NCBI GenBank assembly: GCA_017871115.1
Contig: JAFCIZ010000006.1
Span: 3,844,001-3,908,000, forward strand
DNA: 64,000 nucleotides
From: Cunninghamella blakesleeana
Taxonomy: Eukaryota > Mucoromycota > Mucoromycetes > Mucorales > Cunninghamellaceae
Direction: 5' to 3'
In this document: positions 17,349 through 62,833 of the stretch, piece after piece
How positions within the stretch are numbered: the stretch's first letter is position 1
Layout of the letters: every line of letters starts with the position of its first letter
Made by a program: the position numbers and the translations under genes
The notes under the pieces: model-generated
Told to the model about the DNA's origin: nothing
Database searches by the model: none
The model's input: only the letters and a program-made list of their open reading frames with translations

Positions 17349-18965
17349 ATGATTCAATCAACTCTTTTTAGCTACTTTACTTTTAATAATACATCAATTA
17401 AACCAGCAACTTATAAACTGCAATCACTAAAGCAAACTATCCTAAAAGATTACTTTGCAATAAAACCAAAGAAAAAGACAATATTAGATTATTTTAAGCA
17501 ACAAGAAGAAAAAGTAAAGGAACAAAAAAGTAAATAACCAGAGTATATGTATATAGAAAAGAACTTAACATATATTGAAATTTTTAATGCTTTCTACCAT
17601 TTTATTCAATATTATATATATATATATATATATATATTAATTTAGAAGGTTTAGTATATGATCTTGTGCTTGTGGATATATGGAATTCATATCATGGTGG
17701 GGTTTTACCTTGTGTAAAAAAAAATATGTATGATCCAGACTTAAAATATATAGCTGTATCCTATCGCTGGGGTGAAGTTGAGGAACAGTCAGTGAAAACA
17801 CCTGATTATATAGCTTATGTTACTTCATTTCGATTAATGGATTTAGGATTCCTTTGTTATCATATTAAATCTGAACCTGATTTAAAAGATATTCAGTATT
17901 TATGGATCGATGCCATCTCAGTTGACCAATATAATAATTATGAAAAGAAAAAGGAAATAATTTCACACGTGTCAGATATATATAAAAAAGCAGCCTATAT
18001 CTTAGCCGTGCCCGATTTACATTTTGGTTATTTAAAAAAAAATCCATTAAATAATAATATTTTAGATGCAGACGAAAAATATAAACAAGCAGTTTATAAC
18101 GATATTTTTAATAATAATAGCTATAAGCAACCCATCAATAAAAATGAAATAGCAACAATAAAAAGGGAAAATGAAAATAGGCCTAAAAAGAAAAATGTAC
18201 ATCGAATTTTAAAACAATTTATACATAGTGATCATCAATCAATTACCGATAACAAAACAATACAAATAGAAAACGAAAATAAAAAGAAAATATATCAATT
18301 TTTAGCATATCTCATAGAAGATTGGTCAAATCGTGCTTGGGTTATCAGCGAATACTTAATTGCAAAAGAAAAACAAAAAACACAAGGAGTACCATTAAAA
18401 TATATATTTATATCGTTATTCCATCAAGAGCTGACTTTTTTTTTCTCATACTCTTTTGATCATCAACATCATTCACCATTTACAACTATAAACACTGATA
18501 AAAATGACAAGATAAAACCCTGGGAAGTAGACGATGGCTCCAAATTCAACAACTTTTTAAAAACAGTATTTGCACAACGTAGTTATTTAAGTATGTTATT
18601 GGTTTCGAATGCCACAAGAAATGAAGATAAATTCAATGCTATATTACCAATATGGGGTAGATATAATCATTGCATAAAAGGCATAAACACTATATCAGAA
18701 TGGAATATAACAGACTCGATATCAGTCCAATTAAAGTTATATGAAATGATGGATGATTTATGGGATAAAGCAAGATTACTTTACGCATGTTCCAAAAATT
18801 TATCTCTAAGTCTACTTCCTTCCTATGTTAGGCGATATCGAGATTTTGATTTATTTATTATTGAAAAAGATAAAGTAGATATGGCTTATGAAAAGTATTT
18901 GTCTTGTATAAAGGAATATGCACTTGATACGTTTGGAAATAATAACTCTCTACAACATATAATGG

Positions 18966-18999
<34 letters not shown>

Positions 19000-19384
19000 G
19001 GAATATGCTTCTTCACTCTACACCGAAAATTTAATGGATATTCAACTAAATTTTCATAATCATCATCACTATCACCAGTATCATTATCTTTCTATCAAAG
19101 TAAAGCAATACTTTATATGTAAAGAGAAACCTAAATACAATTATGGCATTTTATCAGCTTGTTCATTAAATTATGACGACGATTTGATATCTGTATATAT
19201 ACCTTTTTTTACTTTTACAATACCATATTTTACAAATGTTCTTCCTCCTATAGATTCCGCCGGGATTTTTTTATTTGGCAGCATGGGCCAAAATAGATGG
19301 GTCGTATGCTCCCAAGGTAAATATTTAGACTACAAAAATAGATCTTCGTGCTGTATTTTTAGTAATGTTTTTAATATATATTAA
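17349..19384 (+). CDS. HET-domain protein A with PIP-box-like N-terminal exon
   Basis: Exons 17349-17529 and 17646-19384; 639 residues. The first exon encodes about 60 basic residues with three similar motifs: QSTLFSYF (3-10), QTILKDYF (29-36) and KKTILDYF (42-49). They match the PCNA-interacting PIP-box pattern Q-x-x-hydrophobic-x-x-aromatic-aromatic; the third has K for Q. The second exon carries the HET (heterokaryon incompatibility) domain: YIAVSYRWGE (about 95-104), LWIDAISVDQ, IYKKAAYILAV, then an Asn/Lys-rich insert and WSNRAWVISEY. HET domains trigger incompatibility cell death in filamentous fungi and have been proposed to resemble TIR folds. The C-terminal half is conserved with gene B (NATRNEDKFNAILPIWGRYN, MDDLWDKARLLYACS, GQNRWVVCS) but is not a known domain. 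It contains a polyN run. DNA- or PCNA-linked function is inference from the motifs. Confidence 0.82.
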
Positions 19385-19838: not shown

Positions 19839-22144
19839 ATGATGCAAACAACTCTATTTAACTATTTTCACGGCACCAACAAACCAATTAAACCAGCAAC
19901 TCATAAAATAAAATCATTAAGGCAAACCATTCTATATGATTACTTTTCAATAAAACCAAAAAAAAAGACAGTGTTAGACTATTTTAAACATTAAGAAGAA
20001 AAACTAGAAGAAGAAAAAGGTAGTAAGAAATTGAAACAATTACTATATATTATATATGAAAATCTTTATTATAAATTAGTACTTACCATTATTTTATTTA
20101 TTTTATTTTATGCTATATATTTAATTTAGAGCCTGTATTTGAACTTGTACTTGTAGATATAGATGTGACAGCTGAAAATTATTATTATCGTGAAGTTACC
20201 AAAGATATTACTTGTGTAAAAAAGAATATGTATGATCCAGATTTAAAATATATAGCCATATCTTATCGTTGGGGTGAAATGAATGAACAATTAGTGAAAA
20301 CGCCTGATTACATTGCACATATCACTTCCTTTGATTTGCATGATTTGGGGGCACTTTGTAGTTATATTACTGGCGAACCTGATCTAAAAGATATATCCTA
20401 TTTATGGGTTGATGCCATTTCTGTTAATCAACACGATCATGCGGGGAAAAAAGAAACCATTTTACAAATGACGGAAATCTATAAAAGGGCAACTTATATC
20501 TTGGCCGTACCTGATTTTCATCAATCTTATTTAGAAAATAATCCAGCCAATCTAGAATATCTTAATATTATAGAAAAACATAAGTCAACTATATATAATG
20601 ATATCTTATTCCATAATAATATTGATAATAATAAAATCAATAACAATCAACCAATGGATAAAAATGAAGTAAAAGTAGAAGAAAGTAGTAAAACGGTAAA
20701 TGATGATCGCCAACTAACATCTACTACTAATACTACTATCATCAATACCAATGACAAAGAAATACAAACGGATGATGAAGAAATAAAGAAAGCATATCAA
20801 TTTTTAGTTTACCTTGTACAAGATTGGTCGGATCGTGCTTGGGTTATCAGTGAATACCATATCGCAAAATCAAAAATTCGAACACCATTAAAATTAATAT
20901 TCATATCGCTATTACATTTTGAAATATCCATTTTTTATTCATGTTTTTTTGATCAATCATTACCTACAACTATAAATGCTGATGAAAATATATACTCTTG
21001 GGAAGTGGATAATGGAAGCAAGTTTATCAAATTTTTAAAATCAAGATTTACACAACGTCACCATTTAAGTATGCTTTTAAATTCAAATGCAACAAGAAAT
21101 GAAGATCGATTTAATGCTATTTTACCATCATGGAAGAAATACAATCATGTTATTCGGGATAAAAATACAATATCCAATTGGCACATTACAGATACGATCT
21201 CGGTTCGCATCAAATTATTTGAAATAATGGATCAATTATGGGATAAAGCAAGAATACTTCATGCCTGTTCTAATCATAATGCATCCCCACTTCTTCCTTC
21301 CTTTGTTAGTCGATATGATAAAGATAGTGGTTATTTATATATAAATGAAATTGATAATCCTGAGCATGCTCATGGAGAGTACTTTAAAACTTTATCAGAA
21401 TATACTACTTATATGAATGCGATAAATGAAGCCGACGACGATGATACTAATGATACACCAATTACTATACCAAATGATGTGTCACCACTCTATACTCAAA
21501 ATTTAATGGATATCCAATTGAACCCTAAATACCTTTACCTTGCTATCAAAGCAAATAAATATTTTATTGTAATTAGCGAAGAAAAAGGATATGAAGAAGT
21601 AGAAGAAGTAGAAGAAGTAGAAGAAGTAGAAGAAGTAGAAGAAGTAGAAGAAGTAGAAGAAGTAGAAGAAGTAGAAGAAGTAGAAGAAGTAGAAGAAGTA
21701 GAAGAAGTAGAAGAAGTAGAAGAAGTAGAAGAAGTAGAAGAAGTAGAAGAAGTAGAAGAAGTAGAAGAAGTAGAAGAAGTAGAAGATGTAGAAGATGTAG
21801 AAGATGAAGAGGAAAATGAGGATGATAATGAAGAATATGAACAAGAATATGAATATGAAGAAGGAGAAATAGAAAAAGAAGATGGTTACAGATTTGACGA
21901 GGAGTTTTTATCAAACTATTCATTAAAACATGACGATGATGATAGCTTAAAAATAGTATTTATACCTTTTTTTACATATACGTTACCTAGGTTTACTGAA
22001 ATAGCCCCTCTCAATAGTTGTGGTATCTTCTTAGCTGGTAATATGGTCCAAAATAGATGGATAGTACTATCTCACCGTAAATTTGAGGGATATTATCAAG
22101 ATACTGTTTGCTGTACTGACAATTATAGTTTTAATGTATATTAA
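19839..22144 (+). CDS. HET-domain protein B; exon 1 carries an in-frame stop
   Basis: Exons by homology to gene A: 19839-20019 and 20130-22144. Exon 1 has exactly the same length (181 nt), the same phase and the same motifs: QTTLFNYF, QTILYDYF, KKTVLDYF. Codon 52, CAA (Gln) in A, is TAA here (19992-19994), so the full-length product is interrupted. Exon 2 is open for 671 codons and keeps the HET motifs (YIAISYRWGE, LWVDAISVNQ, IYKRATYILAV, WSDRAWVISEY) and the conserved C-terminal half (NATRNEDRFNAILPSW, MVQNRWIVLS). A tract of about 21 EEV triplets (21593-21783) plus acidic sequence is inserted before the C-terminus. If exon 1 is dead, translation could start at the ATG at 20228 (638 residues), just before the HET motif. 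Alternatives: pseudogene in progress, truncated short peptide, readthrough, or a single-base error. Confidence 0.72.
21593..21807 (+). repeat. coding minisatellite GAAGAAGTA (EEV), about 21 units
   Basis: Period-9 perfect tandem repeat within HET gene B, encoding Glu-Glu-Val, with two or three GAAGATGTA-type (EDV) units at the 3' end. Gene A lacks it. The period is a multiple of three, so expansion or contraction keeps the frame. Long Phe- or Leu-rich minus-strand ORFs here are shadows of the repeat. Confidence 0.95.
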
Positions 22145-58666: not shown

Positions 58667-59192
58667 ATTTGAAAAAATAAAACTATTTCACACATAATTA
58701 TAATCAATTATATATTATTTCCTAATCTTTTAATATTATTTTTTTTTATATTTTTGGGTAATTAAAACGATAACAAAATTAATAGAATTATTAGATACAA
58801 AGAACTAAGATGATCGATGCCTATAACCATATATGGTAGGGGTAGAGTAATACAAACTGATGAAACTCTTCACACAAAATAATACTAAAGCATATATATT
58901 TTACTATATTGATTTGAATGTTTCATTTAGTTATAATAATATAATACTTAATGATGATATATAAATTTTAAATTTAAAAAAGCTGGTAAATTTGCTAGCA
59001 TTATCCTCTTCTAATAACATATATTGATATTGCTATTTCATCAGAAATTTATATTTATAGATCATAACTGATCTTTAAAGAGGTGCATAAAAAATGGGTA
59101 TATCGAGGTGTAATTATGTTATAAATATATATTTGAATGGTATTCCTGTTTTTAATTTAAAATGTGATATTTTCTAATTGTTCAATCTATTA
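58511..59192. other. intergenic, no gene seen
   Basis: AT-rich; TA runs near 58638-58670. No coding exon. Confidence 0.5.
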
Positions 59193-59483
59193 ATGAATAA
59201 ACTAAAAAAAAGTATGATTTTTTTTACTTTATTATTATTCGGTTGTGTTTCTTTGTTTACGGTGATGGTTAGCTGGATATCATCGTATACTATATCTATT
59301 TCTACTAGTATTTTATTATTATTTCTTGGTCAAGCATTACCGTATTATTATCGTTATTATGAAAGAGAAGGATATAATTATAAACGATTGTTTATATATT
59401 TATATATATCGAATTCAATGCGTCTAAATTTGCTGAATTTTTTCCTGGACAAGTTTGATGAAAACCAGGTATATATTCTCTAG
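59193..59483 (+). CDS. possible small membrane protein
   Basis: ORF of 96 residues from the ATG at 59193. The first 55 residues are strongly hydrophobic (MIFFTLLLFGCVSLFTVMVS, SISTSILLLFLGQ), suggesting two membrane segments. The rest is Tyr/Arg-rich (PYYYRYYEREGYNYKR) and ends LDKFDENQVYIL. Just before the stop, a possible splice donor (CAG then GTATAT) would allow a second exon, but I found no convincing continuation. It lies beside the duplicated QGQ region but shares no clear motif with that family. No known family; it could be chance AT-rich coding. Confidence 0.35.
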   Translation: MNKLKKSMIFFTLLLFGCVSLFTVMVSWISSYTISISTSILLLFLGQALPYYYRYYEREGYNYKRLFIYLYISNSMRLNLLNFFLDKFDENQVYIL

Positions 59484-61174: not shown

Positions 61175-62833
61175 GTTGTTTTAGAGATAGAAGATAAGTA
61201 TTGGTAATATTAGATAGAGCTAACGCAAGTGTTTTTTACTTGGTTGATTTTTCAGTGATCAGCTATATCTCTCCGAGATTTGATAATGAAATATGTCTTT
61301 ATTTATTTGATCACCCGAATCATCTATCTACAGTAATACCTACCTCTTTTGATGATTGTTGAATCCACAATTCTAATAAAGTTGCCACTACAGATCAATA
61401 AGACCACATTAGTTTTTATTGATAAGACTAAGCCTATGTTTGATTTTTTAAAATTATTCTTATAATCGCTGTACTTTTTGATAAATTGTTTTTAATCGTG
61501 ATATAATATGATTTAAACAATAATGAATTACAATGGCTGATAAACCATATGTATTTATATATATACAAAGGAAAAAGGAAAAAGAAAAAAAATATTTTAT
61601 TAATCATGGATAGTCCAATTGTTTATTGCTTTTTTTTAAAAAAAAAATTTTTTAATATATATATATATATATATATGTGTGTGTATTACTTGAATTTCGT
61701 CTTCATTCATGCACTATTAACTTTTTAAATCGTCTTTCTTTCTAAATAAATATTTTTTTGTCTGTGACCATCCATCAAAATCTCAGTGGATGCAACCTAG
61801 CACCCTTTGAAACACAATATTCATTAATTAAAATGATGTTACATAAGCTCATATATTCAGGTGTTTTCGCTGGATTTTCATCTACTTCTCTCTGAAAATA
61901 AGATGTAGCTATATATTTTAATTCTATATCATACATTTATTCTTGAAAGCTAGATGAAGAACAATCATGTAATGAATTCAATTTATGCACAAATAAAAGA
62001 CTAAAGATTGTTTCTTTTAAATTGAACATAAATAATAAATAAAATAAAATAGCAAGTATTAATAAATCTAATTCGTAGTAAAAATTTAGTTTCTATATGT
62101 ATATATCAATCACTATTAATCTTTCTTTTCTCTTTCCTCTTTTTACTGTTTAAAATTATCTAATATAACCTTTTCTTTGATTTTATTGAGTAGTAATCTT
62201 GAAAGATGGTTTGATTTTGCGGCTATACTTTATAAATTATTGGTTAATTTAATTTATCATTACAAGTAAAATAGCCGAAGAGAGCTGTTTGTACCATTTA
62301 GCAGTGTTATTAGAGGCATAAGTGAAGAGAGAGGAAAAAAAAAAAACAATAATTGATTTTATTAAATATAAAAATTAAATTAGTTGTATAGCCTTTTTTA
62401 CCAATATCCCCCATAGCTTTATAAAAAAAATAAGCTATTGAAACTTATCATTACTATTATTTAAAAACAACACATATAAAACTTATATTTAATATAATAT
62501 ATATATATATATGCATATCTTTAAAGATTCTTTATCTTTTAATATATAATTATTCTATACCTCAAAGCACGGCCGTCTTTTCTCTTCTTTTATTGTTGAT
62601 GGGGTTATTTGTAAATCATTCATTTTCTGTTTTTTTTTTTTTTTTTATGATTTATGCGTTCTATTTTATTTTTTTTATATATTTTAAAAACTACTTGTTT
62701 TCCCTATTTATCTGAAGAAATTTGAGAGGGATTATAGTTCTTTGGTGCATAAATCTTTAAATATATTAATCGCAAACTACTATATATAAAAAAAATAAAA
62801 CTGTAGACTCTTTTTTTTTTTTCTTCTTCTTCT

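Follow-up and report, generated by a model that had tools for sequence, protein, structure and literature searches.

We propose that gene A, a HET-domain gene in a stretch of 64,000 nucleotides of the Cunninghamella blakesleeana genome (hereafter, the window), belongs to a Cunninghamella-specific expansion of HET genes, and that its first exon encodes a disordered basic tether, with up to three PIP motifs, to PCNA. We hold this reading as a whole with moderate confidence, and its parts differ in strength. It seems likely that the tail binds PCNA. That a HET effector would be kept at PCNA is about evenly balanced, and activation triggered by the clamp is a tentative suggestion. HET domains are known as triggers of cell death in fungi, and PCNA is the sliding ring by which the replication machinery stays attached to DNA. 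The domain and the motif class are both known. Their combination, kept in one lineage, appears to be new.

Two genes with a three-motif first exon

Gene A occupies positions 17349-19384 of the forward strand and has two predicted exons encoding 639 amino acids. Exon 1 (17349..17529) was originally predicted to specify three PIP-like motifs in a short basic peptide, and we could locate them all on the forward strand: the exon encodes 60 residues, basic in character, with QSTLFSYF (17355..17378), QTILKDYF (17433..17456), and KKTILDYF (17472..17495). As given in excerpts of the published definition, a PIP-box is Q-x-x-aliphatic-x-x-aromatic-aromatic, i.e., QxxPsixx-aromatic-aromatic (PMC6881253). 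The first two motifs are canonical by this definition, in agreement with the prediction, while the third is PIP-like, with K replacing Q. Eighteen residues separate motif 1 from motif 2, and five separate motif 2 from motif 3. A basic cluster, KPKKK (17463..17477, forward strand), lies between motifs 2 and 3 and overlaps the start of the latter. It is possibly both a nuclear signal and a flank contributing to PCNA affinity.

The predicted intron (17530..17645, forward strand) spans 116 bp, from GTAAAT to TTTAG, with GT-AG borders and in phase 1. Its retention would place a stop two residues past exon 1 (17530-17537) and release a free 62-residue peptide carrying the three motifs. Exon 2 (17646..19384, forward strand) encodes the HET domain, as had been anticipated, and a C-terminal region. 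HET domains were called with Pfam PF06985 at its gathering cut-off of 22.5 bits, and both genes of the window score above it: 42.4 bits for gene A (17747..18352) and 49.6 bits for gene B (20249-20854), both on the forward strand. When exon 2 of both genes was scanned for NACHT, NB-ARC, or any other Pfam domain (E 0.001), HET alone was returned. The layout of fungal NLRs, with NACHT or NB-ARC and repeats beside the effector, is therefore not the one found here. The best protein match of gene A is P0001 from Cunninghamella echinulata (Mucorales), with 88% identity and 74% of the query covered.

Gene B lies on the same strand. Its exon 1 (19839..20019, with an assumed donor at 20020) encodes QTTLFNYF (19845-19868), QTILYDYF (19923-19946), and KKTVLDYF (19962-19985). 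The expectation that gene B keeps all three motifs despite different spacers was thus correct, and what it had left out is an in-frame TAA at 19992..19994 in exon 1, past motif 3 and ahead of the likely donor. Exon 2 follows at 20130..22144, with an assumed acceptor at 20129. Gene B may be a pseudogene, it may use an alternative start in exon 2, or the TAA may be a sequencing error. Its C-terminal region includes a long Glu-Glu-Val repeat (21586-21890), at which the match to gene A is interrupted. On the reverse strand, a degraded third copy (61810..62297) consists of relics of exon 1, with internal stops, and of the beginning of the HET exon, and a weak match at 59084-59329 may be part of it.

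The splice between exons 1 and 2 of gene A is a prediction. We tested the exon joins at 12 loci of the same genome and found eight with an open GT-AG join in phase 1 and two with a join in another phase (L027 and L035). L029 and L030 gave no join under the same filter, and L029 has a phase-1 candidate in a looser test. At several loci the join is ambiguous, more than one being possible. Public protein models likewise join the array exon to the HET part.

Distribution of the array in the genome and the genus

The motif set is poorly explained by chance. We shuffled the exon-1 peptide 200,000 times: three loose motifs appeared in 2 shuffles and two Q motifs in 27, and none gave three loose motifs including two Q motifs. 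At the DNA level, a degenerate motif-1 pattern has two matches in the 64-kb window, one in each of genes A and B, where 0.03 would be expected. Given these shuffles and pattern counts, we reject a chance origin.

We then consider the 31.9-Mb assembly holding the window. A pattern of ATG plus motif 1 has 12 matches in this genome, all 12 in exon-1 sites of the family, upstream of a HET match, and its reversed control has none. The genome contains 22 HET matches, 14 of which have an array-type exon just upstream. All three motifs are present at 12 of these 14 loci, gene B included; the others are L037, without motif 1, and L042, which is degenerate. The remaining 8 of the 22 HET matches have no array recognizable with a loose pattern (L010, L012, L018, and L022 being read over the full frame), and L012 has a degraded exon 1. 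The tail has been lost, wholly or partly, at L037, L042, and L012. Contig C8, which makes up 5% of the assembly, holds 10 of the 22 HET matches (L002, L007-L013, L015, and L016), partly clustered; the binomial p of 4e-8 applies to copies that, when in tandem, are not independent. Exon 1 itself has at least 20 matches in the genome; among the 20 matches listed, 14 are just upstream of a HET match and the other six are relic-like. Of these six, which include one in the window, four are followed by HET-family remnants, and two (L036 and L039) have no such remnants within the flank examined. The relic first exons of L040 and L041 (C5:664383 and C5:673973) are 9.6 kb apart, have an identical relic translation, and are followed by HET-family remnants, a pair that looks like a segmental duplication.

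Among database proteins, a region search with residues 1-60 of P0044 retrieved 14 proteins (17 candidates scored), every one of them with a precomputed HET domain. A profile search gave five short proteins. Four are ORFs 58-73 residues long, from short contigs, and we read them as additional first exons; the fifth is a C. blakesleeana fragment that extends into the start of the HET part. In neither of these searches was the exon found shuffled freely onto other proteins. The arrays in the database come from C. echinulata and C. blakesleeana, with the four short ORFs in addition.

We built a quick tree of 91 homologs, of which 28 have the array, 4 have a partial one, 35 are other proteins, and 24 have a model starting inside; 40 of its 88 inner branches are poorly supported. 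The rows with the array are all from Cunninghamella and form a main clade and a separate branch of three proteins (support 89). The array label changes 19 times on the tree, compared with a mean of 24.2 when shuffled, and 8 of 500 shuffles are as low, which amounts to moderate clustering. On these gene models, the history of the array is therefore not a simple single gain. Because many models in the database begin within exon 2, the absence of an array in a row of the tree is weak evidence. No array was seen in Absidia, Halteromyces, or Chlamydoabsidia, as judged on database gene models rather than on DNA.

Conservation of the motifs and the choice of a partner

The original prediction held that the motifs are kept in gene B while the spacers differ, and that free drift of the Q, L, and YF positions in homologs would count against a PCNA ligand. 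We aligned 29 N-termini, i.e., 28 database proteins of two species and gene A. They were chosen from 106 homologs by taking those numbered below P0085 whose HET domain starts 85-125 residues in (29 proteins), with the addition of P0005 and gene A and leaving out P0025 and P0029, which are without motifs 1 and 3. Q is present in 29/29 sequences in motif 1 and in motif 2, an aliphatic residue is present in 29/29 in each of the three motifs, and the first aromatic residue is Y in 29/29, 27/29, and 28/29 in motifs 1, 2, and 3. The second aromatic position is F or Y in 29/29 in motif 2 and F in 29/29 in motif 3. In motif 1, position 8 is F in 20/29, with I in five, L in three, and N in one, and is thus non-aromatic in 9/29. 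Hence, Q, L, and the first aromatic do not drift freely, and the second aromatic of motif 1 does so in part. The mean pairwise identity of the motif cores in these 29 N-termini is 0.84, 0.86, and 0.93 for motifs 1, 2, and 3, against 0.25 in the first linker and 0.23 in the last; the short middle linker, with its lysines, reaches 0.46. The conserved HET part has a mean identity of 0.66 and the C-terminal part 0.38, so the first and last linkers are lower than both. The contrast between kept motifs and drifting long spacers holds in most full-length relatives. Islands of motif amid drifting linkers are the pattern typical of short linear motifs.

Such conservation names no partner by itself, and the array could serve a partner other than PCNA, either another nuclear hub or self-assembly, as with the amyloid signaling motifs of some fungal NLR/effector pairs. 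We give this a minor but real chance. Two features of the motifs fit it. Motif 1 is more strongly conserved than a PIP-box requires: its x positions (T-T, then F-N) have an identity of 0.69, and the third residue is T in 27/29. Furthermore, the third motif is usually without Q. We counted this in a wider tally of 43 N-termini (30 from the database, gene A, and 12 loci of the genome, with gene B excluded), using an expression that demanded Q in motifs 1 and 2. Three frames are present in 39 of the 43, the misses being P0025, P0029, L037, and L042. Canonical PIP-boxes are found in 25/39 first motifs, 33/39 second motifs, and 4/39 third motifs, leaving 35/39 third motifs without Q: the first residue of motif 3 is K in 30/39, Q in four (P0033, P0070, P0074, and L033), R in three, and E in two. 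Since P0033, P0070, and P0074 form the separate branch with support 89, Q may be ancestral in motif 3 there. On the other side, the motif starts of gene A are unevenly spaced, by 26 and 13 residues, and the exact motif-1 start pattern occurs in this genome within the family alone, so that no NLR partner sharing this start is seen. Finally, motifs 1 and 2 repeat the spacing of the published PIP-box, as given in the excerpts of PMC6881253, and motif 3 does so apart from the Q. For these reasons PCNA remains our preferred partner.

A PIP-box can also be a degron. During S phase, the CRL4-Cdt2 ligase would then target the HET protein for destruction on PCNA bound to chromatin, keeping a toxic protein low during DNA copying. 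A PIP-degron needs K or R at +4, frequently together with TD at positions 5-6 (excerpts of PMC6881253). TD does occur at these positions in 3/39 second motifs (QTNLTDY or QTSLTDY), as in p21. The combination of TD with a basic +4 is found in 0/39 first motifs and 0/39 second motifs, the +4 residue of motif 2 is P in 26/39 and K or R in only 5/39, and position 5 of motif 3 is L, I, V, or F (rows read by eye). We consequently reject the degron and regard it as very unlikely.

Selection on the motifs was estimated from pN/pS across 12 first exons of the genome, gene B included, with pairs that are not independent and a high pS of 0.5-0.7. The values are 0.15, 0.23, and 0.26 for motifs 1, 2, and 3, compared with 0.81 and 0.63 for the linkers; the last-linker value is rough, since its block contains the stop of gene B and, for L032 at least, extends into the intron. 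Within the motifs, the core has lower values than the x positions in motif 1 (0.11 versus 0.19) and in motif 2 (0.10 versus 0.32). In motif 3 the core is barely below the x positions (0.28 versus 0.29), which counts against the tether, as do the stop of gene B and the whole or partial loss of the tail at L037, L042, and L012. In four close pairs, which were chosen by similarity and offer small numbers, changes affected 0/44 core sites, 5/52 other motif sites, and 17/138 remaining sites.

These values bear on two further explanations. The ordinary one is that the proteins are decaying products of a family burst and that the tail is inherited without use, as might be suggested by the stop of gene B and the genome's six exon-1 relics, of which one lies in the window. 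We find this quite improbable given the low pN/pS of the motif codons and the absence of core changes between close pairs. The other is that the array is an integrated decoy, mimicking PCNA clients as a bait, with HET firing once a product of a virus, mobile element, or symbiont attacks or displaces the array. Baits in arms races usually vary, and the motif cores are the best-kept part that we measured, unlike a variable bait. Still, the family has expanded, with several relics and 10 of the genome's 22 HET matches on one contig, and HET genes have been proposed as immune genes (excerpts of PMC10197012). We consider the decoy improbable, and continue with the tether to PCNA.

PCNA as the predicted partner and its implications

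The genome has one PCNA gene that we could find (three PF02747 matches within ~560 bases). Its pocket segments IALQAMDNSHVALV, the interdomain loop (with one difference), LSNEVPLLVEY, and YLAPKIG match the PCNA of Chaetomium thermophilum (7o1e/7o1f), of which 7o1f is a complex with a PIP peptide (excerpts of PMC10087552). By sequence, then, the Cunninghamella PCNA keeps an intact PIP pocket. The mean net charge of the five residues on each side is +3.1 for motif 2 and +3.2 for motif 3, and positive flanks favor PCNA binding (excerpts of PMC6881253); that of motif 1 is ~0, which counts against the tether. The tail is predicted to be disordered: in the relative P0006, blocks of residues 1-60 have pLDDT of 41-58, while 411 of its 594 residues are at pLDDT of 90 or more. 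A sequence search of the PDB with the peptide gave no match, an outcome to be expected with such a short motif. In the XPG-family loci of the genome, a FEN1-like locus has QSRMMDFF, and QPTINSYF is near another, in a frame differing from that of its XPG match. These candidates (at L060 and L059, respectively) were judged by eye among six pattern matches, in 3/6 loci and on both strands, so single PIP matches at such loci mean little.

We can outline how the tether might work. The disordered basic tail, with KPKKK, would carry the protein to nuclear PCNA, where motifs 1 and 2 would enter the pocket under the interdomain loop with their Q, aliphatic, and aromatic residues, and motif 3 with its lysines could provide a weaker third contact. 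With five residues between them, motifs 2 and 3 of gene A are probably too close to occupy two pockets of one ring, and are likely to be alternatives or to bridge rings, while motif 1, at a distance of 18 residues, might reach a second pocket. The HET part, possibly similar to TIR domains or deoxyribosyltransferases, would be the effector, held on PCNA in the nucleus, and a trimeric clamp loaded with such proteins would gather up to three HET domains. More speculatively, PCNA would be both sensor and scaffold: PIP arrays would load TIR-like HET domains on the rings. Where DNA replication is abnormal or foreign, rings that are numerous or persist would become crowded, bringing HET domains together into a cell death signal. 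This could follow from the clamp being a trimer and from TIR domains forming large signaling complexes (excerpts of PMC10197012). We regard this last step as doubtful, though worth stating.

The closest known systems share only parts of this architecture. Fungal incompatibility HET proteins have the same domain (PF06985, above the curated cut-off) and form a many-copy family; in the Cunninghamella array proteins, HET is preceded by the 60-residue array. FEN1, MSH6, UNG2, PolD4, and p21, which are replication, repair, or cell-cycle proteins, share the Q-x-x-aliphatic-x-x-aromatic-aromatic pattern with motifs 1 and 2 of gene A, and to our knowledge none has a HET domain. The array of gene A is dense relative to known PIP-box proteins, with three motifs in 50 residues. 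MSH6 (RQSTLYSFF) and a UNG2 variant (MIGQKTLYSFF) are very close to MIQTTLFNYF (excerpts of PMC6881253). Possible counterparts of the HET part are immune effectors with a TIR domain (SARM1, ThsB) and nucleoside deoxyribosyltransferases; a Foldseek search for a TIR/NDT-like fold gave no significant match, and we found no phage records. In the open-licence literature, we found no paper combining the HET domain with a PIP box and PCNA, tying PCNA to fungal programmed cell death and heterokaryon incompatibility, or linking PIP box and PCNA to an immune receptor and effector domain. For HET biology in Mucorales, three papers that name both Cunninghamella and heterokaryon incompatibility came up, along with one review. 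A 2023 review of the fungal immune system, whose HET section is headed "mysterious players," nowhere names PCNA, and its excerpts make no mention of a PIP-box tail (PMC10197012).

What HET proteins sense and where they act has been established for few incompatibility pairs (excerpts of PMC10197012). With a conserved tether of PCNA type shared by tens of relatives, HET proteins gain a concrete and quickly testable candidate partner, and the array family provides an entry to HET biology in Mucorales. Such a tether would join fungal self/non-self cell death to DNA replication. If the proposed mechanism is true, fungal immune-type effectors would include a cell death system that monitors replication.
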